Origin: Amphibalanus amphitrite | Lineage: Eukaryota; Arthropoda; Thecostraca; Balanomorpha; Balanidae | Assembly: GCF_019059575.1 (NCBI RefSeq) | Contig: NW_024881781.1 | Span: forward strand, 186,001-250,000 | Length of the DNA: 64,000 bases | Direction of reading: 5' to 3' | Part shown: positions 4,005-27,200 of the stretch, piece by piece | How the letters are laid out: the number at the start of each line of letters is the position of its first letter | Numbering within the stretch: position 1 is the first letter of the stretch | The notes under the pieces: generated by a model | What the model was told of the DNA's origin: nothing | Databases searched by the model: none | What the model saw: the letters and a program-made list of their open reading frames with translations, nothing else | Translations under genes and position numbers: made by a program

Positions 4005-4092
4005 TAACGGATCCCGGGAGAAAAGTCTATCACAGGCTCCATAGTTAGCATTCGAAGGTGCGAAGTGAACGATGCTAATCTCTACTGCAGAA

Positions 4093-6712: not shown

Positions 6713-7567
6713 TCTTCGAACGGAACCCTTGGTTTTTCGCGAGTAATTCGCGTAAAAAGCGGCCGATCGCAACGAAACTTTCAGTACCCTCGCGATAACT
6801 ACTTTTACAGCTAACCTGAAAATTTCATGACCCTGACCTTAATGATCTTTGACATGTGACCTTCTTTCGAGACCATGTTTGGCCGGAATCGCGATTCAGC
6901 GTATGTCGGCTCGCATTAGCCGCGGGTTTGCAGTCTTTTCTTGGTTTACAGCGTTCAAACATGGGATATTATGTTGCTCCCATGCATTAGGGTGGGTGTC
7001 AAGGTCACCAGAAGGTCAGGTAAGGTCATTGACCTTTGATGACCTTGGTTCACTTTTTCGAGTTTTACATGTTTCTAGGCTAGTTTTTGGAGCTGAATTC
7101 GAATCTAGCAACCATTTGAACATTTACTATGTAGCTTTGGTGCCTTCGTAACATGTTACAAAGCTGTCAGAGGCGGTTGCCACCTACTGCAAATACCCGG
7201 CAAAACCCTTACTGGTTGACCTGACCTGACCTGACCCGACCTGGCCTAAATGTATGAAGACATCATCTATGATCGTAAATAACATTATATTCGTGATCAG
7301 CACCAAAAAAAAAACATAGCAGCCACCCTTTACGACGTTCTAACAGGTCCCGATTTTCCCGACTTTTGGGTCATTGACCTGACCTGGAAGGTCAACCGAT
7401 GACCTAGGACATTACAATTGGGTATCATCAGCTTCCTCTTGTCACGGGCAACACGCTCGTCTTTTCCGCGAAGCTCTAGCTCGATCAGGGGCGAAACGGC
7501 GGGGGGGTCCAACGGACCCCTTCTATACGTTCGCGGCTGGAAAAACACCACTAGGGGCGAGGGTTAA
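6713..7567. mobile_element. AGGTCA-rich TTAA element, copy A (left end eroded)
   Basis: The right end GGGCGAGGGTTAA closes at 7567. Similarity to copy B starts near 6713 and includes AAAAAGCGGCCGATC, ACATGTTTCTAGG and GCCTTCGTAACATGTTAC. AGGTCA/TGACCT half-sites cluster at 7000-7060, 7205-7240 and 7370-7405. The expected TTAACCC left terminus is missing. Confidence 0.75.
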
Positions 7568-10281
7568 GCCAAATCTGAGGGCTTAATTCAGAAAGACCGC
7601 TAAAAGAGCAATTGAATGCACTTTTCTGCGACGATGTAGCTCTATTGGTCCCCGAGGTAAGGGCCGATTTTCGAGTAATGTTGATATATGCAACCTTTTA
7701 CCTTTGATGACCTCTGGTTACGTGACCTTTGACCTGACCTAGAAATGACTAATTACTCCATCTGGAATTTCGGGCGCTCTTTCGAATGCCACTTACTACG
7801 TGTCGCTATGTGGCCCAAGAGCCGAGTTAGAAGGGGAGTGTTCAATCAACACCTCCCGGCCCGGCGCGTTTGACGCCGAGCACCGGTCCGGCGCGGGTTG
7901 ATGTTTGGCTGCTACATCCAAAGTCGCAAAAAGTCGCAAAAAATGACTGTTGGATCTTGTAGTGCAATGAATCATTGACATGTAGCGAGATTTTCGAAGC
8001 GGTACTCTGCGGTACTTTTTTTTAAAGTCTATTTGTGTGTGACATCAATTATGTGAAATTATATTTTCGTCTTTAAATCTTTGCGGTGCCAATACATCAC
8101 CCCAAGTAAGAGTTTGCCATTTTCATGTGGTTATGTGTGTTCTGCAGACCCGGAGCTATCGTTTGATGTAGGTATATAAATGTGGAATGCCTCCTCAAAT
8201 TGTGATTGTTTTCGTGGATCAAAGATACGTTGTCGAAGAGTGCGGGGGACGAGTTCGGTCAAAACGATTCCGAAGTTCGTGTTTAAGCTGGGTTTTCGCC
8301 ATGAAATAGCAATTGTGTTGGAAAACAAAGACCACAGCAATGTAGTATGATCATTTTTGAACAAATTGGTATAGGTTTCATTGCACATCCACAAAGTTCG
8401 ATTTTTTTACTCATGTCGTGCTAGACCTGGCGATCGGCCCAGTGTGCACCGCGCCCCTGGGACGCCGATTTACGTCAGATGCTGACGATGCCCGCATTGG
8501 ACGTAATGTCTGCGTGCCAGCACGTCAATCGTACGCAGAGAACAGAGCTCTGCAGCTCGTTCGGGGATACAGTGTCATAGTAATTGGTCTATACGGAGAT
8601 AAGGTGACGCAACTATTGGAACATTGGTTTCGTGCTTATAGCTAGGGCTCCTATAACGCAGTTCACTGCTGAGAATAACTAGGAAAAGGCTTTCGATTTT
8701 AATCATCGAAAATGTCACATTTCAACAGAACCTAATTTGCAATAAAAACCAACGAGCAAATCGTTGAAACGGCGTCCTTTTTAAAGAAAACGGCTTGCAC
8801 CATCACCCTTCATGGTATGGTTGATTATTCATGCGATATTAGATTTCTTCTCATCTGAATCTGAAAATAATCAATATTACTCAAAAGTTTGATTAATGGC
8901 TTTTATTTGACTTTTCAGTAATTGACAACTAACTTCAAAGTTAGCAAGTAATTTAAGTTGGGAAACGATGTCTGTTTTATATGGAATAGTTAATCGTCAT
9001 CTCATATAAAGTCATCGCCTTAACAGACAACTTTCCATTCCCGCATAGCGCCATATAAATCGCAACTCCATTTAGTGCATGTTGGCTGAGGCCGAGGCTC
9101 CACATATAAACGCACCTAATCATTATTTTCGTTTATTTATTGTAGACCACAAATAATGAGGGCATTTGCACATATCACCGTGACAAGATTCGACTCACGA
9201 CGAACGGTAAATATAAACGTCGATGTGTTTATTATACCGTGAACAGTATCAGATACCACGCAATATTCGTCTCACTCGGAGAGTTTTGTTCCGAAAACTT
9301 GGAAGCTGGAGCAGTAAAGCGTCTGACATGGCGGTGGCCGTGCCGGCGACATTTTTCACCACTTATATCCATGGTCCAGTGATCCAGAGTGCACCTAAGT
9401 GTGCTAATTAGAGATGTGGCTAATTTCCACGGTACTGAGAAGGGAGACAGGTGTGCCTAAGCTGGGAACGACTCGATACTAGGACCGTGCCGCCACGTTT
9501 TCGCTAGATATCTTATCAAGGAAGGCGTTGAAGTGGCAGGCGGGGAACTTTGAAGATGGAAGCACTGGTCGTTTCCGGACAAAAAAAAAAGTTCTGTTTC
9601 ATCTAGACTTCCTTGTCCTGTTTTTATTCGCTTTATTATTTAGGCACAATAACTTCTACGTAACTTTTCGGGATAGTTGTGGTAACTATCCTAAGTCTAG
9701 AGAAGGGTTTGGGTCTATTTTTACGTTTAGGTACAACTGCACCATCAACGCTCAGAAAAGATTTGCCGCCGGCGAACAGGGAGACCAGTGCATGGAAGGG
9801 AGCGTATGACCACACTCTTCCAGTTCCTTTACAGTCCATTGTCATTAGCTAAAGGCTAGTCCTGAAACATACATACGATATACCTGAAACATGGATGAGG
9901 CATACATCAACAAAAAGAGGAAACACATACCTACCACAAGAGGCTGACAACTGCATCTGATTGTAGGCATAGATGCATGTACCTATCGATTTTTTTTTTT
10001 ATAAATTTAGCTCGAATGTTTGAATGGACGGATTGACAGAGCCGGAGCCCACGCTAAGCAGAGCTTGTTGCGTAGACCCCGACCCCTACCGTCCGATCGC
10101 GCAATTCCGGGTAACGGGAGAATTTTATCAGAGAAGATTATCAGATTATCAGAGAAGAAACTGAATTAAGTGTCATAACACATCTTCAGGTCCGGATGAC
10201 ATAGCGGGAGAACGGCTGCCTCCCTCCCCCACCCGCGCTCATCACTCGTCCTCAAACAGAGGACAGCCGTGTCACTGCCAT
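7568..10281. other. Gene-free region
   Basis: More TGACCT motifs lie at 7690-7745, perhaps from a further decayed element. The rest (7990-10281) is AT-rich and without recognisable coding, RNA or repeat structure. It probably includes the 3' UTR of the minus-strand methyltransferase next to 10281. Confidence 0.5.
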
Positions 10282-10482
10282 TCATTCTTTCTTCCGGGCG
10301 ACCACAAAGAAGCAGCCAGTGTGGTCCGCCATCTTGTCCAGAGGACACTGACGCGGGATCTGGTGCCACTGTTCCTCGCAGAGGCCGGTAGAACGGAGCG
10401 ACTCGCTGATCATCGAGTGTGTAAGCGACACTGACGGAAAACGCGCCTCCTCTACCAGGTAGAATGAGTTTCCTAGCGCGCC
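10282..10482 (-). CDS. N-methyltransferase exon 5 (stop codon)
   Basis: This exon encodes residues 189-254 and the TGA at 10284-10282. It begins GALGNSFYLVEE after a CCGGCAG acceptor and ends GCFFVVARKKE. The last strand and the final basic residues match the end of NNMT-like enzymes. No canonical AATAAA lies close downstream; the nearest AT-rich candidates on this strand are around 9640-9617. Confidence 0.88.
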   Translation of the reverse strand, partial: GALGNSFYLVEEARFPSVSLTHSMISESLRSTGLCEEQWHQIPRQCPLDKMADHTGCFFVVARKKE

Positions 10483-13400
10483 CTGCCGGCCAATTATATA
10501 GTGTCACTCGGGCTAGCTGAAAATAATAATATTAATGTTCTAGAATTTATAATCGAGGATCTGAGGCCTGAGGGACAGTGAATATGATTGGACGAACACT
10601 CCATAACGGAAGCATTACTTTTTAATATTCGTCATCATTTCGTTTCTATTTTGCTATTTTCTATTTTACTATTTTCGTTTCTCATTGTACGCTTTGTTGA
10701 CAAGAAACGAGAAACACGGATGTCGCATTTTAGTCATGCAAGAGTCGTGCACTGAAAACAATTTTACCCGAAGCTGGCGAATTAAGCGTTGCTCTGCGGG
10801 TGGTATATGTGTATTAACTCGCCATGTCCAGATTCTAGCTAGAGGGTAAGCAGACTTGCCTGCCTTATTACCGTAAACCGGGGTGAGTTGATATGGATTT
10901 TGAGGTTATTCTAGATTTCGTTAAAAGCCACATTCATTTACGGAATTCTTTTTGTGCCAGTTTCATGGCACATGCCTTGGGGAGGCAATCAGCAAAAATG
11001 AATAAAAAATGTATATATTAAGCCCCTTTTTTAAAACGCCAAAGTTCATATCAACTCACCACCCCACAGGGGGTGAGTTGATATGATTTTGGATTTTTCA
11101 AAATTTCTCGGCTAAAGAAGCTCAGAGGTGAGTTGATAAAATGCCAGTGTTTAAAAAAAGGATGAGAGAACACATCCTGAAAGAAACCATTAGAAAAATG
11201 CTAGTAGTTTGGCAGCAGACCTCACATTCATGAAAACGCAATCATGTCCAACACAGCGCGATCAAAATGGCTTGATTTTAGCAGCATCATTTTTTCGCTT
11301 TATGATACTTAGTTTTACTTAGAACATTCTGAACTTGGCTAGTCACGTGTCCTCAAGCCAACGGTATCAAAACTGGCAATATATTTTGGAATTACAAGTG
11401 TATTTTCTTGTAATTAAAACACATTGTCAGTTGCGGGTCAAGGTTGATATGCCTCTGACAGAAATAATGGATTGAAATGAAAGAATACATATACTTCTGA
11501 GCTTTTGTTGACTGGTAGTCAACAAAATATTAATGAAGTGAAGTGAAGCGAATCTAATTCGGACTGTATTCTAAGCGACATAAAACAGAATTCGGCATCA
11601 AAAGCCAAAATTAACCCTCGCACTTATAGGCGGGCGAACGGACCACCTCGGCTTTTCGCACATAACTCGCGCAAAAAGCGGCCGATCACGACGAAACTTT
11701 CAGTACCTCTCGAGTTTATCAATTTTACACATGTTCTAAAGATTTCATGACTCTGACTCAAATGGTTTTTGACTTGTGACCTGATTCTCGAGACCATGCT
11801 TGGCCGGAATCGCGATTTGGCGTAGTCGGCTCACATTATCCGCGCATTTCCAGTCTTTTTGTGATTGTAACGTCCAAACATGTAAATGATGTTGGTCCCA
11901 CGCAGTATTTTGGGTGTCAACTGTCAAGGTCGCCTGAAGGTCAGGTCAGGTCATTGACCTTTGGTGATCTCGGTTCACTTTTTGGAGTTTTACATGTTTC
12001 TAGGGTAGTTTTTTTCGGGCCGATTTCGAATTTAACATGCATTTGATCATTTATGAAGTAGTTTTAGTGCCTTCGTAACATGTTACGACACCGTTAGTGG
12101 TAGCTGACACTTGACACTCCCTATGGATAGCCGGCAGGACACATACTGGTTGACCTGACCTGACCTGACCTGGCCTAAATGTACGAAGACATCTGTGAGC
12201 AAAACTAACATGACATTCGCCATCAGCAACAGCCAAAAAATAATAAACTCGCTTTACGAACTTCAAATAACCCCCTATTTTCCCGACTTCTGGGTAATTG
12301 ACCTGGCCTGGAAGGTTAACCAATGACCAAGTTGGCTATCATCGGCTTCCTCGCGTCTCGGGCAACACGCTCATTTTTTCCGCGAAGCTCTAGCTCCACC
12401 AGGGGCCAAACGACGATGGGATTCCAACGGACCCCCCCCCCCCCATACGTTAAACGCTGCCAAAACACGAATACGGGCGAGGGCTAAACACCAGTCAATT
12501 TCTTTATATTGTTTGTTCCATTTCATTTTGCCTCTCATTCTCGGTTGGCAACTGCCAAGCAGGAAAACTAATCAGTTTCACGAGATCAGAATTCCCGCGC
12601 TGTTAGCCATACAGAAATGACAGTTCTGTCATTTTCGAAACTACGAATAAATATAACAGTTTTTTTAATCTGTATGTAATATAGGTGTTCTATAGTGTTC
12701 CTTTGTAGCTTGTAGGGAGCCATCTTGAGACTTGACAGGGAGCTGTGCTGTGCCTTTTTTCATGTTAGGTATGTCCACAGAAAAAAAAACTTTGGGGTTA
12801 CTGATGTTAGTTGTCGGACCTTCGTCCCCGTCTTGAGTTGAGATTCAGTTTCATAACGTTTCGGCCAGTTACTCTCCGGCCGTCGTCACTCGTCAGGTGT
12901 TCTTTGACCCTCAAGGACCTGGATGTTGGTGGCGTTGCGCCGTACGCGTCAAACAGTTCGAAAGCTCCTGTAGTCAGCGGGAATCGAACTCGGGTTTCCC
13001 CGGTGATGGTCCACGGTTGTAACCACTCCACTATCGAGGCAGGCTTGACTACGGCCGGAGAAGCTACTGGCTGAAACGTTGTGAAACTAACATCTCAACT
13101 CAAGACGGGGACGAAAGTCCGACAACTAACATCAGTGATACTAACAGGCCTCGTCTCAAGCATTCAGAAAAAACTAAAGCTTTTGGGGTTGATGGAATGA
13201 TGTGGGGAAAGAAAAGGAGAAGAGTTGGTCTAATTGACTTTGTCTTACCTGCAGACCCATATTTCATGCTAATTTGCATGCCTACCAGCCTGGTATCAGC
13301 TTTTATCATGCATATCAACTCACCACCTGATGGCATATCAACTCACCACCTGTCACTTTTCTTAAAATTATAAAAAAAGCGTTGTTATAGGTGAAACCCA

Positions 13401-16400
13401 AAACTACCTGGGATCAACAGTAAATTGATGGTAGTTTCTTTCCCAGTGCATGTTGTTTCATGAATATCCACCGTCTTTGCTGTAGGGTGGGGACTTTTCC
13501 TTAGTTTCAAAATCAGAAGAAAAAAAGGACTTTGAAAAAAGTAATGTGTTAAGAAGGCACTGCACCACATGCATGCCTTCCTCAGCTATATGCATCACTT
13601 ATTGGTTGCTTCACTTCACAGAAAAATAAAACTAAAAATTGGTTTACAAATGGATGAGCAACACACATTTTAACATTTTTCGAGCAATTTATATCAACTC
13701 ACCACCCCATATCAACTCACCCCGGTTTACGGTACTCGTAAATATGCACCGTACCCACAGTCTGCAGTAAGGTAGCTACTCAGCAGCGGATATTGTCCCC
13801 GCGGGTGTCGAGTCATTGGCATAGCCCTCACTTAAAGAGTTGGAACTACTCGAGGTATCGTAAACGCGTATCCGTGGATGGCGAACCTTTACATAACCTG
13901 CCCTGAAGGAGTTGGATCTACTGTTACAACTAGATGGCGTTGTCTCATACGGTTTTGAATTACAACAATTTTTTAACTTTTTTTGAACCAATGATATGTT
14001 GGCACATTGTTTGGCGGTTTTCAAGTGGGGGCGAAAGTACAATTGTTAGGGTGCATCTTTAAAACCTCTGCAATATTCATCACGGGACGATTGGCAACGC
14101 TTTTTCTTCCGAAACTACCAAGTGAGACCATTTTGATTCTTATATAGGTCACGAAAGCGGCGGCGCCACATCTCCTTGATTTCGGGCGGTCTGCATGGCT
14201 GCCGGTGACTGAGTCATGTCGAAATTCCTATGGGAATTCGATTTGACCTTTCCCACCGATGTAAAACTTTCTCACCGATGTTTTCTAGGTGTGAGATTGC
14301 TATAATATAGATATTTTCCCGCAAATATGTTCAAGCGTGGGAGTTTTTTTGGCACTCGTGATTTGGTCGGCGAAGGGTAGGCGTGGAGGGTAATCCCATC
14401 TCCTAGGGGTTTGTGGGGCGCTGCTGCCAGGTAGGCGTCGATGAATACCTTTCGATGGAGGGGTCGCGAGCCACTGGTGCGCGAATAGTCGTGGAGGGTT
14501 ACTACTCTCCAGAGTGAATTGCGAAAGTGTTATGTCCTAAATTGACTCCTGGGAGGGTGGTTAAAAATGGTTGCGGATAGGGGTACCCGCGAAACACCGG
14601 TTTACTCGCCGGCCCTGGGTTAAACTGTTTTCAGTGTGGGCATCTCGAGTTTTTTTTTTTCTCTCGTCTTCTTACAGGTCCTAACACACCAGGGTTCGAC
14701 ATGCAAAACTGGTTCCCTGTAAAATGTTGATATCCTTATGAAGTTTATAGAGTATTTTCCAACCTAATATGCTTCTTAACCCGGCCGGGCCCGGGGGGTA
14801 ATCCCAACCACCGCAGCCCGGGGGGGGGCGTTTTTCGCCCCCCCCCCCCTGTCTAACTCCGTAAATAAGGGAGCTACAGAAACAAAAGCGATACCAAACG
14901 AAAGGTCCTTACGAGACGATTCTAATGCACCTAAAATTTTTGACCTCAGGTCAATTTTCAAGGTCAGAGGTCAAGGTCAAAGGCCAAAACCGGCACATGT
15001 GTAGTGATCTCAAAGTAAGCCTTCTAGAGGACGGCAGGCTGCATCAAACCGGCAAAATTGGGTGTCAAACGAAAGAAGAGAATCTGAGGATTCTGAAAAT
15101 GTGCTCCAAATCAAAGGTCAAGGTCAAGGTCACGCTCAAAATTGACCTCAAACTTGGCACTTTTTCGCACATCTTGCGTGCTAACTTCCAAGATGTTTTG
15201 AAATGTTTTGAGGCTTATCAGTTCCCTATTTGTGGTTCATCTTACGATACAAGGCTGCTCAAAGGTCAAGGTCACAGAAGAGTATCCCTGCTAGAGGCTA
15301 TTTCACTGATTCAAGTTAGTAATAATAAATAAGACAATTTTGCCATCCGGAAGCTCTAAATGAAGGCTTAGAGGAAAATAGATGCCAGATTCGTGATCAG
15401 CGGGTACAAATCCATCATAAACGACCCTTCATGTGTCAAGGTCAACCAGAGGTCATTCGAGGTCACATGAGGTCAACATGAAACTTGACCTTTTCCGAAC
15501 AAAATATATATCATTCGACGCGGCTTGACAAGGCGAATGCGATGGTACCACTGCCGTAGCTCTAGGACCATTTTTGTCGAAGTTACTTGCGAAAAACTAA
15601 AACCACATTTCGAGGTCGTTGACCTGACCTCTGACCTCAGGTCACCAAAACTATTTTTCTATTTTTCTCTAGGTGAAACGCTACACAGCCGTGCTCGTAA
15701 TTTGTCTTTATCTCTAAAACTCTATTTTTAGCAGCTATTTGAAGTTTGCGTCTGTGACGCCGAAGTTTGCCGTGCAGGGGTCTAGAAAAATGGACCTTGT
15801 GACGTCATCAAGGGGGCTATGTCCAAATTTTTTACTTCAGAAGATGTCAAATTGATGGGAGAAAAGGTACTGAAAGTGTCGTCTTCCTATCCCTAAGCGT
15901 TCGGGAGTTATCGCAAATATTCGCCAGGGGGGGCGTTTTTCGCCCCCCCCCCCGGGCCCGCGAGGGTTAAACCAATTTTTGACTGCAGGTAAGCTCATTA
16001 TTATAAGATATTAACCTGATTACCTGCATAATGAGGTAGCCTCCGGGCTTTAAAAGCGTCGTCACATTTCTCAGGGCCTGCTGATACTGCGTCAAGTCGG
16101 TGGCGGCAAACTCCAAACACAGGCTACTTAGCATCACATCAAACCTGAAACGGAGAGAAATTTAGTTAACTAATCAGTTATTTCATGTGCTGCCTGTCTC
16201 TGCCTCGGTTTCGTCAACGAGTCGAACAGCAATGCTGTGCAAAAGCATGGAGTCATGGATCACTATTGGAGCTTATCAGTTACTTCCAGTTACCACTGGT
16301 TAACCGAAGCAATGATTGCAGACCTTTCAGGCTTATTTGCATTTGATCAACTGGAACAGTCTGGTTCAGACGCTCTGCATTATACCACGTGCCTGTTCGG

Positions 16401-19400
16401 GACGGCGGCTCCCAGCGGCTCCTCCTGCAGAACATCTGCTGGAAGGACTCGGTTGACCTTGTGTCGGACCCGGTCGGCAAGCTGGGACGGGGTCAGCCCG
16501 CCTCCCTCCAGGGCAGCCACGTACTTCAGGTGGGGGCTCCAGTCCAGCTGATCTTCCCCCTTCTTCAGCCACTCCATAACCGCCTCTCTGAGAAACAGAA
16601 ACAGCCAAACGGTGGTTACCACCGGATCCAAGAACACGAATAAATTGAGTAGCTCGCTATATTCGTATAAATTAGCCAACTTCATTAAAGTTGAACTCGT
16701 ATCAGCTGACATACTCTCAGTGCTGTACCTTCTTACCTATACTTTGTACATTACTGCATTTAGCACATCATATGCATATGTCGCACATGGCATGTATCGA
16801 TATGTTCTATGTATAGCTAAATTAACACAACACTCAAGTCCGGGATAGTATTTCTCACCGGTTGGCAGGCACGAGATCGGCCATTGTGATGGTGTCGGCC
16901 CACCGGGAGGCCGAGAGTACGGCAGTGATGGTCGGACCACAGCCAATGTCCAGAACTTCCCGACCCGGGCAGTCGGTCAGCCCTGCGCAGAACAGGGAGT
17001 CGTCTCACTGCCGTAGGAGGCACCAGCATGGCTTAAATACAACAAAATGCATCTGTGATGCAAGCAGAAACTTAAGCTATATGTGTTAATGGATTTATTG
17101 GGTTTTGAGTGCAATTATGCCGAATAATATGAGGTACAACGTATTCGGGTGGACTCATTTCGTCAGAGACGGATTCGACACCCTTTTCAGAAGCAGAAAT
17201 AATACGAGACGCGTCCACACGAATGTGTTGTATACGTCTCATAAGATATGCTTCTCTTTTAGGTACTGCTCAGTTATACCGAATGTTTGTTTTGTTCTGT
17301 CCTTCAAAGGCTTGAGCACGGAATATATACCTAGTCTACGACTGTCGTATCCGTGGCTTGAGGATGGCTGTTCACTCTGTTCAGATTAGAATGAATTTTA
17401 GGTGGTAGCGGTAGGTTTTTTTTTGGAACCCCAACTCTCTGTCTACTGTCAACCCGAAGGTTAGTACATACATACCATTTTTTCATGCATATTCAAGGTG
17501 CAAAATAGAAACTGTGGCAAAGTCTAACCCGCGCACCGACGGGGGGGGGGCGGATATCCGCCCCCCCCTGAGGTTTTTCGCAAATAGCGGGAAAACCGCG
17601 GCGCGTAGCGCCGCGAAATTTGGTATGACTATTCCCTTATCAATTTTACACATGGTGTGCAAGTTTGAACCTCCTACCTTTCAAGGTCAGGTCACCAGGT
17701 CACTTTGAATGACCCAACCTCAAGTCACTTTTTTGCAACTTTGTCACCGTGCCAGAGCTACAGTAGATGTCGTAGGCCTTTGAAAGTCGCAGGATGTTAT
17801 TAGGTCATTAGTAGCTACAATTTTTATATCTCGGAATTTTGATATCGGTGACCTAAGGTCAGGTCAATTTCGCGACCTCCCCATTATAAGTCAATGGGGG
17901 AAAAATCAACTCCCTGTTTTTACCACTAAAACGGGTCGGAATGGCCCCATATACCATACATGACTTCATATACGATCAACCTTCACTACCTTGAGGTCTG
18001 TTTTGCTGTTGGGCAGCTGTGAGGTCATGTGACGTCATCAAAGGTCACCAAAGGTTTTTGGCCAATAACTCCGTACAGGAACAAGATACAGACGCGTGGA
18101 TGGTCTCATTGTGTTCAGCTCGTCAAGACGCATCGAATGATATACATGATGACCTCGAGGTCACGTGACCTGAGGTCAACCTTTGACCTTGACCTTTCGA
18201 GGTCAACATATATATCATTCGATGCGGATTGACGAGAGGATCACGATGATGCCCTTAGTTTGTTCCTATCTTGACTAATTCGAAAGTTATTCGAGAAAAA
18301 CTCTCTCCATATTTAGCGCCGCCATTTTGACTTTTTCGACCCCTGTGACGTCATCTTTGACCTGACCTGAAAATGACCTTAGTAAAAATTGTAGATCTTG
18401 ACCGTGCGTATCCGATGCCGTTTACCGCTTGTCGCTATCTTGCTTCGTTCTCGAGATCTCAGGGGGGGCGGTCATCCGCCCCCCCCCCCCGTCGGTACTA
18501 AGTTGGCGCAGACCCCCGTCGGTGCGCGGGCTAATCAGTCGAACTATCGTGTACTGCGGCACAGTCTAACCAGTCAGTCAAACTAGCGTGTACTGCGGCG
18601 CAATCTAACCAGTCAGTAAAGCTTGCGTGTACTGCGGCACAGTCTAACCAGTCAGGCAAACTAGCGTGTACTGCGGCGCAGTCTAACCAGTCAGTTAAAC
18701 TAATGTGTACCTAATGCGGCACAGTCTCACCATGCACTCGAACTATCGTGTAATGCGGCGCAGTCTAACCAGGCAGTCAAACTTGTGTGTACTGCGGCAC
18801 AGCCTAACCAGTCAGGCAAACTAGCGTGTACTGCGGCGCAGTCTAACCAGTCAGGCAAACTAGCGTGTACTGCGGCACAGTCTAACCAGTCAGTCAAACT
18901 AGCGTGTACTGCGGCACAGGCTAATCAGTCAGTGTAACTAGTGTGTACTGCGGCACAGTCTAACTATCGTTTTCTGCGCCACAGTTTAACCAGACAGTCA
19001 AACTAGCGTGTATTGCAGCACAGTTCAACTATCGTTTTCTGCGGCACATGTGCCGCAGAAAACGACAGGTCTAAGCAGGCAGTCAAACTAGCGTATATAG
19101 CGGCAGAGCCTAGCCAGTCAGTGTACTGCGGCACAGCCTAACCAGTCAGTCATCCCAGTTGAATAACATAAAGTGTGAGTGGAATTTGGAAAATATATTT
19201 CATTTATTTTTCTGTGCCTGGTAAGTAGAGCTTACATAATCCTTTAAACTAGTGATTCAACAGACTTAAATCAGCCACCGGATGTCAATCGTTAGGGATA
19301 TTTAAATGTGTCACTCTTAGTAATCGTACCCACCTTCAGCGAATGTCTGGTGCAGCTGCTGGAGGAAGAACTGCACCTCGGGGTCCACCTCCGAGTAGTA

Positions 19401-19457
19401 CTCACGGTGGTACCTGGCCGAGTCAAACGACGCGTACAGTTGCCTGGTTTCGGTCAT
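10282..19457 (-). CDS. NNMT/PNMT/INMT-family SAM-dependent N-methyltransferase, complete, 5 exons
   Basis: The protein is 254 residues, joined from exons 19457-19334, 16982-16859, 16587-16393, 16144-16024 and 10482-10282; all phases close. It should move a methyl group from S-adenosylmethionine to a nitrogen of a small amine or pyridine in the cytosol; no signal peptide or membrane segment is seen. Motif I VLDIGCGPT lies at residues 51-59. The family block EWLKK...DWSPHLKYV is at about 88-106, DVLQEEPLG at 134-142, SLCLE at 155-159 and LKPGG at 179-183. The C-terminus, GCFFVVARKKE, matches the family end. Human NNMT is about 264 residues, so the length fits. The ATG is the first one before the conserved FD..RY...YY segment; the frame stays open upstream. 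Vertebrate relatives use nicotinamide, noradrenaline or indolethylamine; the substrate here cannot be told. Intron 3 uses a GC donor, and intron 4 (5.5 kb) is full of transposons. Confidence 0.9.
10750..10800. mobile_element. Fragment of the CACTGAAAACA foldback
   Basis: Its first approximately 40 bases match the left arm of the 2072-2370 element (CACTGAAAACAATTT, then GCTGGCGA); similarity then fades. Confidence 0.6.
11611..12487. mobile_element. AGGTCA-rich TTAA element, copy B
   Basis: It begins TTAACCCTCGC and ends GGGCGAGGGCTAA, so one target copy has probably mutated from TTAA. It is close to copy A across most of its length. TGACCT/AGGTCA clusters lie at 11940-11975 and 12150-12175, and a C-run at 12433-12444. 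It is inserted inside the 10871-13732 element. Confidence 0.85.
12801..13135. mobile_element. Foldback element enclosing a tRNA-like sequence
   Basis: About 90-bp inverted arms start CTGATGTTAGTTGTCGGA at 12801 and mirror to 13135. Between them, on the minus strand, a tRNA-like stretch runs about 13040-12975: GCCTCGATAGTGG...GGTTA resembles a pol III A box, and GTTCGATTCCC a B box. The acceptor and anticodon stems do not close well, so this is a tRNA-derived repeat rather than a working tRNA gene. Confidence 0.7.
14545..14636. mobile_element. Half copy of the CACTGAAAACA foldback
   Basis: It matches the right arm of the 2072-2370 element, from ACTCCTGGGAGGGTGG through GGTTGCGGATAGGGG to TGTTTTCAGTG, with a few substitutions. 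The opposite arm is absent. Confidence 0.8.
14776..15970. mobile_element. AGGTCA-rich TTAA element, copy C
   Basis: It begins TTAACCCGG and ends GCGAGGGTTAA. Both ends carry a hairpin of a G-run, CGTTTTTCG and a C-run (about 14820-14850 and 15928-15952). Half-sites are dense: AGGTCA directly repeated with 0-1 bp spacing at 14960-14985 and 15110-15135, more at 15430-15490 and 15610-15645. It carries one ATATATCATTCGA motif near 15505-15518. Confidence 0.87.
16024..16144 (-). CDS. N-methyltransferase exon 4
   Basis: This exon encodes residues 149-188, from FDVMLSSLCLE to LLKPGGYLIMQ, with a TTTCAG acceptor and a GTAATC donor. SLCLE and LKPGG are hallmarks of the NNMT/PNMT branch. It is separated from the last exon by 5.5 kb of repeat-filled intron. 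Confidence 0.92.
16393..16587 (-). CDS. N-methyltransferase exon 3 (ends at a GC donor)
   Basis: This exon encodes residues 84-147 with a TTTCTCAG acceptor. The 3' boundary must be phase 2 to join exon 4. The nearby GT sites are all phase 0 and would put a stop at the start of exon 4. The AG|GCACGT site fits both the phase and the GC-AG intron consensus, and gives AVPN-R-FDVMLSSLC, as expected for the family. Confidence 0.87.
16859..16982 (-). CDS. N-methyltransferase exon 2 (SAM-binding motif I)
   Basis: This exon encodes residues 43-82, flanked by a GCGCAG acceptor and a GTGAGA donor. It holds REVLDIGCGPT, the glycine-rich loop that binds S-adenosylmethionine, followed by the ITMADLVPANR strand-turn where family members have an acidic residue contacting the ribose. 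Confidence 0.92.
17524..18534. mobile_element. AGGTCA-rich TTAA/CTAA element, copy D
   Basis: The 18-bp inverted ends CCCGCGCACCGACGGGGG are identical and flanked by CTAA on both sides (17524-17527, 18531-18534), a TTAA-like target. G-run/C-run hairpins sit just inside each end. TGACCT/AGGTCA motifs cluster at 17680-17720, 17850-17880 and 18150-18210. An inverted pair of TCGAATGATATA motifs lies near 18133 and 18212. Confidence 0.88.
18535..19165. repeat. 39-bp minisatellite, about sixteen copies
   Basis: The unit contains GTGTACTGCGGCACAGTC and CTAACCAGTCAGTCAAACTA. GTACTGCGGC recurs with 39-bp spacing, for example at 18551 and 18590. Units differ by substitutions and some are shortened. 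It begins directly at the right end of element D and lies in intron 1 of the methyltransferase. Confidence 0.92.
19032..19065. repeat. Perfect 34-bp palindrome inside the minisatellite
   Basis: The left half TCGTTTTCTGCGGCACA is followed directly by its exact reverse complement. After it the array resumes in the original orientation, so it looks like a local inversion or hairpin scar. Confidence 0.9.
19334..19457 (-). CDS. N-methyltransferase exon 1 (start codon)
   Basis: This exon encodes residues 1-41 plus one base of codon 42. It starts MTETRQLYASFD and ends before a GTGGGT donor. It carries the aromatic N-terminal segment (YHREYY) seen in NNMT-type enzymes, which there helps close over the cofactor. 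The phase-1 end joins exon 2 to give ...FAE-G-LTDCPG. Confidence 0.88.
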
Positions 19458-20286
19458 CGTGGGGCCGTCACTGCGATACCACGTCTGTCTAAGTCCCGGG
19501 TGCTGAGCTAGATTGAATAAGACGACCGCCTTCCACCCTGACCAGCTGCGGAGATTATCTTTGACTATTCCAATCCAGCAGAGTCTACCAGGGGTTAACT
19601 GGAATCCTGCAGAGCTTTCCAGTACTCTGACACCTCAGCTGACCAGCGCTGTCGCCGTCCTCTGCGTCCTCCTGGAGCCCAGTGACCGCTCCGGTCCGTC
19701 GCGCCCCGTTTTATCCCTCTGCCGCTGACCGGACGGTCTGAGATGTCGGCCATCCGGAGCAGATACCGCCCCGGTCCGGTCCCCGAGGACCGTTTCAGGT
19801 CGCCTTATAGCGCGCTACATATGGAACAGGAGGTGTGGAGACCCGCGACAGCCCTGCCCGGGACGATAAGAGCTGTGGAGAGCTGGGCCAGCCTCGTCCC
19901 CTGCGAGCGTAGCAGAGCTGCGCTGGGGTGACCTGTCACCGCGGGTGCACGACCACTAGCCACCGGGCACGTCAGGCCCTGGGCAGCCGGACAGGCATGA
20001 ACAACTAACCTGCAGGTGGACCAGATAAAAGGACTTGCACTTTGCAAGGTTAGGGAAATAAACGTTATCTTCTCTGGTCCATGTAGGCAATGAATAGCTC
20101 AATCTGCTAGGCCCAGGATTACATGTGTTATAATGTAGGTAATTGCACTGCACTAGCGTTTATATTTTGGAAAGAAGATACGTGCATGTAGACTGTAGAG
20201 CCTTCGATTCATGCCTTATCAGTCGTGCCAAATAAGAGGTTGCATTAAGATAAGTCAGGTCAGATCAGGACAGAAAGTCGGACGTT
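19458..20286. other. GC-rich region upstream of the methyltransferase
   Basis: This is the likely 5' UTR and promoter side of the minus-strand gene. The stretch 19540-20000 is GC-rich, with GATAAAA on the minus strand near 19713, which could be a weak TATA-like box. No firm promoter can be assigned. From 20030 to 20286 nothing was seen. Confidence 0.35.
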
Positions 20287-20385
20287 GGGGTAAAGGCTGG
20301 TTTGATTATAGTAATTATTAGGGTGGATAAAGTTGGGGGTAAAGGCTGGTTTAATTATAGTAATTATTAGGGTGGATAAAAGGAC
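20287..20385. repeat. 49-bp direct duplication
   Basis: GGGGTAAAGGCTGGTTT...AATTATTAGGGTGGATAAA occurs twice in tandem with two or three changes. A neighbouring AGGACTTGCACTT also occurs near 20030. Confidence 0.85.
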
Positions 20386-20520
20386 TTGCACTTACCAATG
20401 TCAGGGAGTTTCGTTCGTACCTAATATCGATGACAGTCATCGACATTCAGGTTCATATTCCTCCCGAATATCGCTGATCTAGAATGCGCATTTACTTTCA
20501 CGTTCAGTGTCCAGTTTTGT

Positions 20521-20701
20521 CAACAGAAAAATAGCCGACTGCGGAATTTTTTGCCTCAAGACCTTTTCACATACGGCCAGCGTGAACGGTATGCCCTATC
20601 TATTTACGTGCCCATCGCGCTTAGCCGCTTACGTTCCGTATGTGAAGCGGTCTTTAGGCAAAAAAAAAAAAAAAATCCTGCAGGCGGCTATTTTTCTGTT
20701 G
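20521..20701. mobile_element. Hairpin MITE, 181 bp
   Basis: The ends CAACAGAAAAATAGCCG and CGGCTATTTTTCTGTTG are inverted copies. Inner arms also pair (GACC...TTCACATACGG with CCGTATGTGAA). An A-run of about 16 breaks the right arm. No target duplication could be fixed. Confidence 0.82.
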
Positions 20702-21039
20702 GTTAAAGTGGTCTCAGATCGATATTCGTAGATCACTTTAACATATGGCTTTCACAAAGTTAAGGATACCGAAATGTATCTCACCAGGGGTGAAATTTTC
20801 GTAAAATGATTGTGGGACTGGGTGCCCAGCTGTAGGGGCGCCAGGCCGTTTTGGGGCGTAAAGAATATTCTGTATGGAGCCTAAATTAACACCGAATTTG
20901 ATAGCATTGCAAGCCGAAGGGAGCTTCAAGTGGCACTGTCTGACTAAGCAAATACGGTTAAAAGTGTAAAGTGACCGGAAGGGCGTCAAAACAAAACAAA
21001 AAATGTAGAGGGGGCTGGGGGAGGCGCCATCCAGTAGGA

Positions 21040-21720
21040 GGGGCACCAAATGTAAGGGCGCCAAACGGTTACGAGGGCGTCGTGAGACCATGAAAAGGGC
21101 CCATTCTCCTAAAAGGGCGCCGAGTGATTGAAAACGTTTTATGGTCCAAGGGCGCTGAGAAGCCAGAAGGGCTCCGCACATTTAGTAATGCTAAGTTGGT
21201 GGGGACGTAGGGGCGCCAGACGGTTACGAGGGTGCCGTGAGACGATGAAAAGGGCACCATTCTCCTATAGAAGGGCGCCGAGTGATTGAAAACGCTACGT
21301 GGTCCAGGGGCGCTGAGAGGCCAGAAGGCAGAAGGGCGCCGCACAGTCAGCAATGCTAAGTTGGTGGGGACGTAGTAAGTAGGAGCGCCAGACGGTTACG
21401 AGTGTGCCGTGAGACCATGAAAAGGGCGCCATTCTCCTAGAAGGGCGCCGAGTGATTGAAAACGCTATGTGGTCCATGGGCGCTGAAAGACCACAAGGGC
21501 GCCGAACAGTCGAGGGATGCACGGTGGACAGAGACCTACTAGGGCGCGAGACGGTTAGGCGCCGTTAGGCGTTAGACCATTAGAATGGCGCGGTCCTGTC
21601 AAAAGGGCGCCATTTTCCCAGAAGGGCGCCGAGTGACTAAAAAAAGCTATATTATCCAGGAACGCGGACGGTCAGGACGCCGTTAGAGCATGCGAAGGGC
21701 GCCGTGCTCTCGAAAGGACG
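21040..21720. repeat. Degenerate tandem array of about 155-170 bp units
   Basis: Units start with CGCCA(A/G)ACGGTTACGAG at about 21059, 21213 and 21386 and contain AAGGGCGCCGAGTGATTGAAAACG and a CGCTGAGA...CAGAAGGGC segment. A fourth, decayed unit continues to about 21720. GGGCGCC recurs many times inside each unit. The minus-strand open frames are repeat products. Confidence 0.85.
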
Positions 21721-21863
21721 CTTGTAAAAGACTTGTGGGTGCCCATCATTGTTGGGGCATAATTCAGGATTGTGGGTGCAATGTGCATCTGCCCCCACAA
21801 AGAAATATAAAATTACACCCCTGTTCCTCACAATGAGAATCATTTTCAAGCTTCAATTCTGAC

Positions 21864-22910
21864 TTAACCCTCGCCGGACCTATTGGTTTTCTACATACGC
21901 GCCGGCCGAGGGGGGGGGGGGGCGGGTACGACCCCCCTCGCCGTTTCGCCCCTGGTGGAGCTAGCGCGTCGCGGAAAAAACGAGCGTGTGCGCCGTTACG
22001 AGACGCAGAGATTGGTACCCGATTTTAAGGTCCTAGGTCAACCGGTGACCTCTGAGGTCAGGTCAAGTGCCCCAGGGTACGGTTCAGTTTTTGGTGAATA
22101 ACTTCGCAAAAAAAACGGCCGCAGAGCCGCGATTTTGGCAGCATCGTGTTCGCCTCGCTCAGGCGCGTCGAATGATATACTTTTTGTCCGGGTCAGGTCA
22201 ACTTAGGGTGTTGACCTCAGGTCAAGGTCAGGTCAGCACCCCCAGGTCACGAAATTGGTCGAAAGAGGTCATGTCGCATATCATTCGATTTGGCAGGTCT
22301 TCCTGAGTCCATTGGTGGCTTTCTCGACTCGCTAGCTTAATTTGATCGGGAGTTATTGACGAAAAACTAATATGACCTTGATGACGTCATAAATGACGTC
22401 ACGCAAGGTCAACATTGCAAAAGTGACGCATCTAACCTTGCAAGGAGTGCATCAAATCACGATTCTGTGTGCTTGAGACAGTTGGAGATCGTTCCCGGCG
22501 CCAGAATAGCAGTTTTCATTTTTCCCCATTGACTTATAATGGTGAGGTCACGAAAATGACCTGACCTCATATGACCTTTAGGAAAAATCCGAGATATACA
22601 AGTTGTGAGACTCATAATGGATACTAGATCCTGCAAGTTTCATTTCCCTGTGACATCTCCTCTGGCAGTGAGGGCGTTGCGAAGTTGCGAGTTGCGACAT
22701 CTGAAGACCGTGCAGAGGTTCACTTATGACGTCATAGGTCAGTGACCTGACCTGACCCAAAAATGCGGTTGGTGTCAAAAGATGCGGCTTGGATCAAAGG
22801 TCAGGTATGCCAAGTTTCAGCTCTCTATTGCCAGCGTGTTCGGAGCTATCGCGAAAAAAACCCTATGGGGGGGGGCGGCACCCCCCCCCCCCTCGGCCGG
22901 CGAGGGTTAA
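21864..22910. mobile_element. AGGTCA-rich TTAA element, copy E (best preserved)
   Basis: It starts TTAACCCTCGCCGG and ends CCGGCGAGGGTTAA, giving a TTAA target duplication and inverted ends, the layout of piggyBac-type elements. G-run/C-run hairpins sit at about 21909-21940 and 22867-22893. Half-sites lie at 22028-22065, 22195-22245, 22540-22580 and 22735-22760. An inverted pair of TCGAATGATATA motifs lies near 22168 and 22277. No transposase frame is present. Confidence 0.9.
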
Positions 22911-25900
22911 GGCTTTATCGGAGTAAAGTCTTCATTCAATTGTTACATTAGCAAACTCCACATCATGTCCTTTAGTTCATTGATTTCGAAATTTAGCGTC
23001 AAATGTCGGGACACCGCATGAGTGCAGTGCCCTTAATTTTCGCCTCAACCTTCTTTAAGGGGTCTCTACGTGCTCCTCTACGTGCTCCTCTCTACGTCTC
23101 TACGTGCCCCTCGCCACGGCCTAATGGACCATCGGGGATGACCCGACCTGTGAAATCTAACTTGACCAGACCCTGGTCCTCGACCCTTTCGTCAAAAGTC
23201 CAAAGTCGGGGTACCACAAATGACGTAAATGCCCTTAACTTTTCTCTCGTCAGATCGTTTTTTAAAGGGACCCTCCCACCTTCAAAAAAGTTTATGAATT
23301 GGCATGAAAGTGATGTCGCTCGATTCAGAAAGAGCGAAAACGAATATCTACCAAATTTCACCGAAAAATATTCACCGGTTTTCAAGATATTTGACTTTTA
23401 TTTTTGTTTACTTTTTGGGATCTCCGCTGTTCCTAGCGACTTTACTTGGAAGCAATAATTTGGCAGCTTAAAGTGCGGCACTTGTTGCTACAAAGCAGCA
23501 TATACCACAGGCATATTTACGTCTGGACAACGAGTTGCGGGGAAAAGTGCTGATTTTGTTGCAGATTTAGGAGCCGGTGATTAGGCTGGATTTTTGGGTT
23601 ACTTTTTCGTTCCGATTCATTTATTTCATAGTGTTTGGCTTTTGAATATTCTAGTTCTTTCAGATAAATATTACTTGCCTTACAACTTTTGTAAAAACGT
23701 TTCATTTTTTATAAGCCGACCTTTAGAGTCCTAAAAATATATCAGCACTACAATCATTGTAAACAAACAAATGGAGCACCACTTGGCTCAAACTTGGCTC
23801 TGTTCCAAGGCGCTTTATCTGGTGGCTTCCGTACTCTTGTACGTCGTTTTGTTGGATGTTTTGGATCCCTTAAGATTGACTTATATCATATTTAAGAAGC
23901 ATGTGACTGAAAACAATCCGAAGTATCCAGGAGGATGACAGAGGCAGAGCAATATCAATATCAAGTTGAACTTGAAGTCATGAAATTTTGGTTGATAAAC
24001 GCAAGTTGATCGGGCTCATATATCAGCAAAAAAAAAGTAAAATTAAAAGACCTTATTGGCCGAAAACAAGCTATAATATTGCAGATCTTGGAGCAATACT
24101 GAAGAGCACGCTGAGCAGGATCATGCCAGAAAATGTTGACTGATGAGCGCATATTGATGTATTGGTATGAATATTGAATGATAACAACAGCAAGATAAAT
24201 TAGTGCTAACTATCAAGTTAAAAATCTAGAATGAATGGACTTTGGCAGCTTTACTATGCTTAGATGCTATGCAGATTGTATGTGCATCAGGTACTCAGTG
24301 TCTGGCAAATGAAACATGCGATCATTCCATTGCTACTGCAACTGGAGGAGAAAGCTTGGATCACGAAATCCACTTTATGTTGATTTTGATGTTAATCATT
24401 ACTGTATTTCTTGAAAAAAGGATTGCTATAAAATTGTCAATGTGACAATCTACCTGTATGCAACGATGTGATCATATGATGTGTTCATAGTCATTCATGA
24501 TAGTGATTCATGATTGTTGGTCCAATATACAATGGCAAAGCTCTCAGTCTCAGCGTTTCTTCCTGTGGATGGCCAGCAGTGACTCAGAGCTTAAAAGTAT
24601 TAGTTTTCTTCACAGGGCTGGGATAAAAAGTACTGAGGGTAATTTTCCACCAAGGAACTCTACTTGAGTTTTGACATGGTATGAGATGTAGGCACAAGTA
24701 GGTAGGTGCTTAGTTCCAATAGGTCTGCAGTTGTGTAGGTTTAGTCAGGTTAGCTTAGATTAGGTTATGTTAGTTTTTTAATTTGCCAAGTGTCCATAAA
24801 AATGTGACCTGAGCAATGAGCATACCTGGATAACCTGACAGCTGACCTAACCTCAATCGTCACACATATTTGCAGCCTACCCAAGAGTCAAGACCTGCAT
24901 AGCAGTAGCACCCAGTTATAGGTAGGTACTCACCCTAACTCAATCTTACCTGCTAACCTTCAACTTGCCTATAGTTAGCTCACCTTGCCAAGCTGCATCC
25001 AGGGAAACAGTCAACTGAGGAACTGGCTCATTGGGTGGCTGGTGTGACTGTGTGAGTCTGTGCATTTTAAGTGTTTCTTCTCTGAAGCTGCTCTGCACTT
25101 GTCATGTTAGATGCTCAGAAAATGTGGGAAATGATTACTTAACTACTCTAGTGCTTTGTTAATGCTCAAGACATGAACAAGTACAGATCCTGCAGGGTAC
25201 AGCTATGAGTTAGGTGCTAGGTGAGTATGTTATGTGAATGTGCTGTTCCCTGTTTGACCATAGTAAGTATACAAACAAGCAAAGGGTCACAGTTATATTC
25301 AATCTCCACATAAACATACAACAAAAACGGCCATATAGCCTCACTCCGAACACACCACAAATAGCTTAAGCCTTTGCAGGCACAAAAATGCTTTGATTTA
25401 CAGGACAGGTATACAATATAACCTCTGTCCATGGGGATCTTGCTGCCAAGTTGAGGTACGATGACTGAACTTCAGGATTGATCAACCTTTTCTTCTTAGC
25501 CACTGCTTATATACGAGAAAGACCAAATGCTTGTTTGTAAACTGCCTTGAAAATTTAATGATCCACCTTCAATTCTGACATGAAGGCACAAATAAAATAG
25601 TTCCCTCTCCTTTTGGAATACACAAAGCAAAATATTTAATAACTTCTAGTGGATGGACAAGAGCAATTAGCATAGCTTTCCCTCAAGCCCCTCACTGATA
25701 AACAACACTGACGCTTATTCGCTTCATATTTTGTAACAAACGCGCAAAAACTGCAATATAACAGCACTATATGCTTCTTGACAAAATGCAAAAGTAGTAA
25801 AAAAAATTAGCCCTGATGGCATTCATTCTTGATGGAAACGTAATGACAAAATATTTTGTAGTAACTATTAAATTTCGGCCGAAAACAGTGCACGGTTTCA

Positions 25901-26150
25901 AAAAGAATCATTCCAATGACGGTCCATTCTTGCGGTCCTGAAATCGCCACTATTTCCGGCCTCTCCAACGCAACTCGTTGTCCAGACGTAAATATGCATA
26001 CCACAGCATGCTACAAAACGTTTTAGTCAAACGACAAACATTTAAAAATCGTTAGATATCTGCGCTGACGTCACACATTCAGAGGGGTATTCCTATGCAT
26101 TAGCCCCTCTGAATCAAAATGCTGCAATTTTGAAATTCAATATTGCCGAT
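22911..26150. other. Gene-free, mostly AT-rich intergenic DNA
   Basis: At 23003-23450 there is a repeat-like GC-richer patch whose GGGGTCTCTACGTGCTCCTC has a relative near 27050. The stretch 24720-24990 has scattered TTAGGT/ACCTAA words. I recognise no gene or RNA. Confidence 0.5.
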
Positions 26151-26947
26151 TTAAAGGGACAGTATCATCGAAAAAAAAATCAATGTATGGAGCTGATTTT
26201 TTTTTTACTAGCATTTCTTATTTTTCTGAATCAGAAAAACATAGTTTGAGGACCGAACTTGGTGAAAAATATTGCAACCACATTTCATTTTCATGATTCA
26301 TTTTCATGAGCGAACCACCACTATACAAGCATGGCCGCCAGTTTGGAAGCATGCAAAATTACTACAGAACTGGCGCAGATAATACATTATTGACGCTACG
26401 CTTACGGGGTCGTTCTTCTAATTGAGTTGTCCTTAGGGAGAGGTAGCCTTAGGTATTGCCTATAAAAATATCACGTGACAATTGGAGGGAGTGACAATTG
26501 GACGTGACAATTGACAATGGGAGAAAATATCACGTGACAATCACGTGATAAACGTCATACATTGGAGGGAGATTGTGATTCAAGCTGGAGGAATTCCTTT
26601 GTTGAGACGCTAGAATCCGAAGTGGAAGGAAACAGCGGAAATTGCCTACGACTATTTAATGAATTTAACGGTGATGAATAAGTGCGAAAAACGTTTTGGC
26701 TTTATAAAATTTGATGAAATGACCAGGGTAAAAGTTTTATTACTGGCGGTCAATTCAAAACGGCGCAAACATTTAAACAGTGAAGATAGTGAAGCACGAT
26801 TCAAAGTGTGGTACACCTTTCGTACTTTGAGCGGCGATAGCGGGAAAATGGTGTGGAGCTTCGAGGATCGGTCTTCAGTTCCCGGACCAGAAAGGTGGGG
26901 TCTATGCAATGTCAAATTTCATCAAAATGGTGATACTGTCCCTTTAA
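26151..26947. mobile_element. Kolobok-like non-autonomous TTAA element
   Basis: TTAA plus AGGGACAGTATCA at 26151-26167 is mirrored by TGATACTGTCCCT plus TTAA at 26931-26947. TTAA targets and TTAAAGGR-type ends are known for Kolobok/T2-type MITEs. Inside lie three TCACGTGA boxes (26471, 26530, 26541). A 102-codon open frame across the right part resembles no transposase I know. Confidence 0.82.
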
Positions 26948-27029
26948 GGCATTTCTCGATGTTGTGAGTGCCGAAACCAGTAATTGTGAGCCAGGGACCC
27001 CATTTTGGCTATCTCAACTCAAATCTAAT

Positions 27030-27200
27030 GTTAAGGTGGGAGGGTCCTTAAGTGGTCTCTATGTGCTCCTCCGTCCTCGCCTAAAGCCCCTAAATTACCG
27101 CCGGGAGACCCTGACCTCATGACCCGTGACCTCTACCTTGACATTGACCTCCTAACCGAGGGTCAAGGATCGGGTACCGCATAAGTGGGGCGAGGGTTAC
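27030..27200. mobile_element. Fragment of an AGGTCA-family element
   Basis: It ends GGGGCGAGGGTTA like the right terminus of copies A-E and carries TGACCT(C) words at 27108-27155. The left terminus is missing. It lies about 350 bp before the STT3B start codon. Confidence 0.55.

Follow-up and report, generated by a model that had tools for sequence, protein, structure and literature searches.

Tip-phased AGGTCA arrays in piggyBac-type miniature transposons of Amphibalanus amphitrite

Repeat copies of the window and their half-sites

The window analysed here is the whole stretch of 64,000 nucleotides from contig NW_024881781.1 (positions 186,001 to 250,000, forward strand) of the Amphibalanus amphitrite assembly GCF_019059575.1. 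Between positions 6713 and 27200 it holds five repeat copies (A to E) and a remnant (F), with ends at TTAA or CTAA, that are heavily loaded with the word AGGTCA, the half-site of nuclear receptors. These copies are miniature inverted-repeat transposable elements (MITEs) of piggyBac type, and most of their half-sites lie at fixed distances from the element tips.

6713..7567, minus strand: MITE copy A of the A/B family, with the left end (in window orientation) truncated and the right tip GCGAGGGTTAA; 14 AGGTCA
11611..12487, minus strand: MITE copy B of the A/B family, TTAA on the left and CTAA on the right; 10 AGGTCA
14776..15970, plus strand: MITE copy C, TTAA at both ends; 20 AGGTCA
17524..18534, plus strand: MITE copy D, CTAA at both ends, bordering a tandem array of 39-bp units; 19 AGGTCA
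21864..22910, plus strand: MITE copy E, TTAA at both ends; 21 AGGTCA
27030..27200, no strand assigned: remnant F, a single tip-like end GCGAGGGTTAC; 3 AGGTCA in 171 bp

Copies A to E span 0.86-1.2 kb, and none of the copies in the window was found to contain a transposase. AGGTCA was counted on both strands, and its expected number was taken as the mean of 300 dinucleotide shuffles per copy. For A to F these means were 0.40, 0.37, 0.73, 0.49, 0.56 and 0.11, and the maximum reached in any copy was at most 4. A preliminary description of this DNA had suggested a density above that expected from composition, and the 10-21 half-sites in copies A to E against an expectation of about 0.4-0.7 bear this out. 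The six copies hold 87 of the 127 AGGTCA words of the window. Across the genome (807,550,619 bases in 2,644 contigs) AGGTCAGGTCAGGTCA occurred 18,613 + 18,319 = 36,932 times, overlapping matches counted, against 121 + 64 = 185 for the reversed word. Chance enrichment of AGGTCA was rejected on the basis of the excess over the shuffles together with this genome-wide excess over the reversed word and a like excess at the transposase-bearing locus L039 (below).

Common CCC...GGG ends at TTAA/CTAA had been ascribed to all six copies. B, C, D and E have such terminal repeats on the left and on the right, whereas A is without its left tip and F has one tip-like end. Just past copy A, at 7700-7740, four AGGTCA words lie within about 35 bp; this group has no BLAST similarity to A to E (1e-6) and is perhaps an older relative. 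The tandem array beside copy D extends from 18536 to 19150 and contains CTAACCAGTCAG in many of its 39-bp units, with D lying at its edge at a CTAA.

In copies A to E the commonest pair of half-sites is one overlapping by a single base, AGGTCAGGTCA, with 16 cases. The remaining pairs, named as direct repeats (DR) by the number of bases between them, were DR4 9 (a number inflated by overlapping triplets, whose outer pairs are counted in it), DR0 6, DR5 4, DR1 2, DR2 1 and DR3 0. The direct repeats with no or one base between them that had first drawn attention are present at 14960-14985 and 15110-15135, but they are outnumbered by the overlapping form. The extended site TCAAGGTCA, also reported at the outset, accounts for 11 of the 84 AGGTCA words in these copies, and inverted repeats of the IR1 type, AGGTCANTGACCT, were found in three exact cases.

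The identity of the word raises the question of whether host nuclear receptors (FTZ-F1, HR3, ERR, or EcR/USP at the inverted pairs) bind the half-sites, the element gaining timed expression or open chromatin while the MITEs spread the sites. The match of AGGTCA to the receptor half-site and the presence of the extended and inverted forms would favour this explanation, but the pair that is commonest here, with its one-base overlap, does not to our knowledge correspond to a standard receptor dimer spacing. A precedent for such spreading is provided by the DR2 sites of Alu elements, as described in PMC1785376.

Copy number, phasing and orientation

The genome searches for further copies covered C, D and E, with 40 first-look candidates scored for each. 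For copy E, 39 other places were found at 97-98% identity and one at 85% among the 40 scored of 4,437 candidates; for copy C, 39 other places at 97-98% among the 40 scored of 2,441; and for copy D, where 40 of 3,209 candidates were scored, 39 other places at 99-100%. The short size, high identity and high copy number of a MITE are found in all three. Other genomic copies with TTAA ends, as would be expected of such a family, were found with copy E, since TTAACCC is present at both ends in 8 of 8 aligned E loci (the window copy included). Because the majority of the relatives of D align from base 2 of D onward, the CTAA of D is probably unusual. The transposase for the MITE copies would be supplied from elsewhere.

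A and B are 76% identical and form one family, to which a further element belongs at 422-1310 of locus L039 that is 90% identical to A and retains both tips. The preliminary division into A/B and C/D/E subfamilies holds for A and B as one family but is otherwise too simple, since E is 76% identical to an A/B element over its first 211 bp, and the similarity among C, D and E is confined to pieces of 70-78% identity. Remnant F gave no BLAST match to A to E or to the two MITEs of L039 at an E-value of 1e-6. Elements standing back to back at one shared TTAA, with GGGTTAACCC junctions, were seen at loci L006, L008, L046 and L056. The arrangement is present in 2 of the 8 E loci, and element ends may be favoured insertion targets. 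Another TTAA family is represented in the window by a foldback element at 2085-2357 with TTAACCC...GGGTTAA ends, the arms of which (2094-2219 and 2221-2346) are 87% complementary, and which has a 95% match at 14545-14636.

The main pattern, overlooked in the preliminary description, is that the half-sites are phased from the tips. The clusters of C and E illustrate it.

14960..14985, plus strand: left cluster I of copy C, direct AGGTCA repeats
15110..15135, plus strand: left cluster II of copy C, direct AGGTCA repeats
22036..22065, plus strand: left half-site cluster I of copy E, 173-202 bp from the tip
22191..22271, plus strand: left half-site cluster II of copy E, 328-408 bp from the tip
22546..22576, minus strand: right half-site cluster II of copy E, 335-365 bp from the right tip
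22727..22734, no strand assigned: palindrome TGACGTCA beside right cluster I of copy E, present also at 22382 and 22394 (E), 18030 and 18346 (D) and 15800 (C)
22737..22757, minus strand: right half-site cluster I of copy E, 154-174 bp from the right tip

Thirteen ends were mapped. Six elements contributed two ends each (B, C, D, E, the L039 MITE and a second MITE nested in L039) and A contributed its right end, the truncated left end of A being omitted. There are 104 half-sites within 420 bp of these tips, and two bands, at 150-205 and 320-385 bp, contain 94 of them while covering 29% of that length. When the map of each element was shifted circularly upon itself the corresponding fraction averaged 0.28 with a maximum of 0.69, and none of 5,000 shifts reached 0.90, although this p-value is only a guide since the bands were chosen after viewing the map and the ends are partly homologous. 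The best period for each element ranged from 166 to 190 bp. When the AB, C, D and E families were each represented by one element, the periodicity summed over the four peaked at 172 bp and exceeded 1,000 of 1,000 null maps. A step of about 170 bp resembles the nucleosome repeat.

A genome-wide count independent of the choice of window copies was obtained with a pattern consisting of the tip TTAACCCTCGC, a gap and AGGTCA, the reversed pattern serving as the control. With gaps of 150-180 bp there were 13,554 forward and 19,973 reverse matches (control 0 + 1), and with gaps of 318-348 bp 14,640 forward and 32,615 reverse (control 0 + 0). Gaps of 220-250 bp gave 208 forward and 351 reverse matches, and gaps of 400-430 bp 400 and 623 (control 0 + 0 in both). 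The forward counts are the fairer ones, because among the roughly one hundred first matches listed a single tip can recur in the reverse counts and appears once in the forward counts. The matches listed for the 150-180 bp gap included at least 10 different tip sequences. If both strands are alike, cluster I would be present on some 27,000 ends.

The half-sites also have a preferred direction. Of the 94 in the two bands, 71 have GGTCA running from the nearer tip towards the interior and 23 have it running the other way, and an inward majority was found in 21 of 23 clusters (sign test 6.6e-5), or 16 of 17 with one element per family. The array is approximately a mirror image around the middle of the element, which fits expectation for end recognition. 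Inward pointing at both ends fits end recognition better than it fits an enhancer, and the arrays are retained in MITEs that are non-coding; both points count against host receptors as the reason for the arrays, an explanation that we regard as unlikely. Hormone-receptor use of the sites as a by-product is possible.

The phase might instead have been inherited passively, through tandem duplication of a unit of about 170-190 bp that contained GGTCA by chance and then diverged, leaving the arrays idle. Diverged units of about 187 bp with GGTCA and TGACGTCA are indeed present in the left arm of a transposase-coding relative on C527 (described below). In contrast, a motif-masked comparison of A to E and the L039 MITE with themselves gave only short, weak matches (E-values 0.44 and above), and for this reason the phase in A to E does not appear to come from recent tandem duplication, which was not supported as its source there. 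Furthermore, both the motif and its phase are retained among elements that differ in their transposases to the extent of 38-62% identity, and in the A/B family the half-site columns are more conserved (0.919, 0.959 and 0.991 identical, depending on the reference row, vs 0.854, 0.840 and 0.802 elsewhere), with mixed significance. We consider passive inheritance improbable.

Relatives with a transposase gene

The genome contains at least 116 matches to PF13843. Relatives that code for a transposase share with the MITEs the tips, G/C-runs and phased half-sites, and together with the TTAA/CCC ends these PF13843-coding elements with shared tips and subterminal DNA confirm that the copies are MITEs of piggyBac type, as had been supposed. 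By protein search, relatives at 60-65% identity were found on C527, C1173, C171, C42, C44, C1797, C702 and C512, and at 39% on C257, C431 and C33, the others being more distant.

One transposase-coding relative is at locus L039 (C778:129000-136900), where the A/B MITE at 422-1310 is followed by a larger element with the tip TTAACCCTCGCC at 1625. The left arm of the larger element is collinear with the A/B MITE and is broken by the MITE nested at a TTAA (1787-2709). Its transposase gene lies at 3758-5692 on the minus strand and has one in-frame stop, and was therefore read as two pieces, the longer of which matched PF13843 with 241 bits and T. ni piggyBac (6X67) with an E-value of 1e-74. The right arm is collinear with the MITE but truncated; similarity runs in pieces over about 7207-7786, is interrupted at about 7305-7568 by foreign sequence, and stops after the last piece. 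The whole locus, both MITEs included, contains 47 AGGTCA against 3.8 expected. A Pfam search of the two pieces for a receptor-type zinc finger gave PF13843 only. Repeats of GTAAGAGTACGC in both directions occupy L039:5940-6900, on the 5' side of the transposase gene.

A full-length relative, the existence of which the preliminary description had left to be looked for, was found on C527 (290214-294184) with two TTAACCC tips and an open frame that has 673 codons when read from a TTG and is shorter if translation begins at an ATG further on. Its right end GCGAGGGTTAA follows a G/C-run, the left end TTAACCCTAGAACGCC adjoins a MITE with which it has a TTAA in common, and both arms contain AGGTCA clusters. 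In the C257 element the right tip, GCGCGGGTTAA, resembles that of D, and the left tip, CACTCGCCGGACCTA, is a decayed form of the E type; the element holds 26 AGGTCA against 2.5 expected, with right-arm clusters at about 170-205, 335-375 and 500-560 bp in. A fourth transposase, 38% identical, is encoded at C702:34200-39400. GGTCA clusters flank it to the left and right, of which the ones before about 770 resemble a D-type MITE, and no tips of the element itself were found. Linked PF13843 transposases are present in the related elements L039, L045, L054 and L063, and the stretches that hold the catalytic aspartates align in the comparisons with T. ni piggyBac.

Nine transposases were compared by alignment and tree, four from AGGTCA-bearing elements and five from other clades. 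The C terminus CxxC...GxG[YF]K...CxxC...VCxxH...CxxC is present in 4 of the 4 AGGTCA-bearing transposases and in 0 of the 5 others, which end in C..C..CxxC..C..C..[YF]H with variations, and in the tree a branch with 100/100 support separates the four from the five. The alignment of the AGGTCA-bearing L045 with T. ni 6X67 extends over the entire cysteine-rich domain (E-value 2.2e-78), whereas L022, of another clade, is nearer to piggyBat than to T. ni. Twelve loci of the AGGTCA-bearing clade (L044-L055) hold 4-26 AGGTCA each; the 29 loci of other clades (L009-L035, L037 and L038, about 4.1 kb each) hold 0-22, with 22 of the 29 at 5 or fewer. The highest of the latter are L010 (14), L020 (13), L022 (11), L023 (10), L024 (6), L027 (9) and L028 (22), and among the matches listed for L010, L022, L023, L027 and L028 the clusters fall outside the element tips. 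The right tip of L024 was searched for and not found.

The tip CCCATTAG occurs in L009, L010, L013, L015, L016 and L022 and CCCAGATC in L035; no tips were found for L012 and L037. Elements tipped by CCCATTAG were considered as the source of the MITEs, and this was not supported, given that the tips differ and that most other-clade loci are poor in AGGTCA. Two of the other clades bear repeated subterminal palindromes of their own, GTCCTCATATGAGGAC in L009 and GTATCATANATGATAC in L035. Long open frames are present in other piggyBac clades (L009, L022-L032 and L035), and L022-L032, which have nearly equal profile scores, may be young copies.

Proposed recognition of the half-sites and comparison with known systems

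It is probable, in our view, that these MITEs are non-autonomous piggyBac elements mobilised by the T. ni-type transposase clade of the same genome, and that AGGTCA is a putative subterminal site for the cysteine-rich domain of that transposase. On the sequence evidence, AGGTCA/TGACCT (with GGTCA as the core, and in some families TGACGTCA as well) would be bound by the C-terminal cysteine-rich domain, in site clusters that are repeated at fixed distances from both tips. Multivalent binding to such arrays may raise transposition or, as in piggyBat, tune it, and the step of 166-190 bp could keep the sites accessible between nucleosomes. The preliminary description had left a choice between the scattering of hormone-responsive sites and a motif that serves the transposase. 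Since the clusters have fixed tip distances throughout the genome, point mainly inward and are linked to one clade with its own domain, the latter is better supported than a hormone cargo.

Several observations weigh against transposase recognition. Two of the 23 clusters point outward, the left end of the nested L039 MITE is without a cluster, and TGACGTCA, of which C to E hold 6 of the 12 in the window, is absent from A and B. The conservation test in the A/B family was mixed, with 92, 10 and 9 of 2,000 shifts doing equally well, and the choice of reference favours the motif. No 10-bp AA/TT/TA periodicity was found between clusters in 15 segments, a comparison of low power. The link between motif and domain counts as a single evolutionary event, because it rests on the split of one clade, and the whole-locus AGGTCA counts of the clades overlap with no clean separation. 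L020 has an other-clade transposase with the other domain type and yet AGGTCA clusters on both sides; the left-hand clusters are part of a distinct MITE that resembles the one nested in L039, and the right-hand clusters lie at 3576-4086, a stretch assigned to no element. In the present elements about 155 bp separate the tip from the first cluster, compared with the 35 and 63 bp that suffice in T. ni according to PMC7351741. Finally, the arrays need not be activating, since an extra internal site in piggyBat can restrain transposition.

This last point leads to the proposal that the sites mainly soak up transposase, as the third piggyBat site does. PMC11707139 describes an inhibitory internal site and suggests that such sites may be widespread, but in this genome dense arrays are found in just those families that are very abundant, and restraint as the main role seems highly improbable. 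As an extension of transposase recognition, we tentatively suggest, while doubting that it will prove correct in full, that the transposase converged on the receptor half-site and that the inward arrays, one nucleosome repeat apart, may act as linker-phased docking platforms, flooding the 808-Mb genome with receptor-type sites as a by-product.

Whatever binds them, these MITEs offer a very abundant natural series of transposon ends in which motif number, orientation and the spacing of about 170 bp vary by family. With this series one could test how transposases make use of arrays near the element ends in chromatin, and what causes some non-autonomous families to explode in number. Should receptors read the sites as well, this would be a parasite that spreads a hormone-type binding word through the genome, and analyses of AGGTCA motifs in this species would need to take these repeats into account.

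The window contains other features. Exon pieces of an NNMT/PNMT/TEMT-type methyltransferase lie on the minus strand at 15976-16146 and 16380-16601 (PF01234, E-values 1.5e-11 and 2.4e-11), the former 6 bp from the end of copy C, and a piece at 19317-19463, perhaps a further exon, had no Pfam match. A GGGCGCC-rich interspersed repeat at 21030-21720 includes an 88-bp unit that recurs at 158- and 170-bp spacing. At 352-543 a 96-bp unit is present twice, exactly and head-to-tail, and at 3077-3994 there are nested long inverted repeats with arms of 91-142 bp and 91-96% complementarity.

Among known systems, Tol2 and Ac/Ds belong to different superfamilies and likewise have a short motif repeated in their subterminal regions; we know of no nucleosome-length phase in either. 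The T. ni piggyBac has CCC tips. It also resembles the elements described here in its TTAA target, DDE transposase and cysteine-rich domain (6X67/6X68). According to PMC7351741, this domain binds a palindrome containing TGACGCATG and the cryptic TGACGTACG too. The 19-bp palindromic repeat of T. ni lies in the outermost 35 bp at one end and in the outermost 63 bp at the other. The TGAC of TGACGCATG is shared by the TGACC (the reverse complement of GGTCA) and TGACGTCA of the present elements, both of which differ little from TGACG, and related recognition is suggested by this likeness. Unlike the T. ni repeats, the GGTCA clusters begin about 155 bp in and recur every 166-190 bp.

The piggyBat of Myotis (9C0F) is of the same superfamily and has repeated internal transposase sites, one of them inhibitory, according to PMC11707139. 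It differs in its motif, GCGGGA plus a palindrome, and in having another domain fold. Alu is a retroposon, whereas the present family is a DNA transposon with 10-21 AGGTCA in each copy of about 1 kb, and in phase. What the two have in common is a transposon family that spreads AGGTCA-type sites, in the case of Alu as DR2 retinoic acid sites (PMC1785376). A limited literature search found no publication on piggyBac MITEs with nuclear receptor half-sites, on nucleosome-periodic subterminal transposon repeats or on piggyBac TTAA MITEs with subterminal internal repeats. On piggyBac transposons of barnacles it led to nothing but a dog-whelk genome, and on ecdysone response elements in transposable elements to nothing but an abstract book. 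Compared with all of these systems, the elements of A. amphitrite belong to an ordinary superfamily, that of piggyBac MITEs, and have an unusual organisation, with phased, mostly inward GGTCA arrays that also occur in the elements of a T. ni-type transposase clade.

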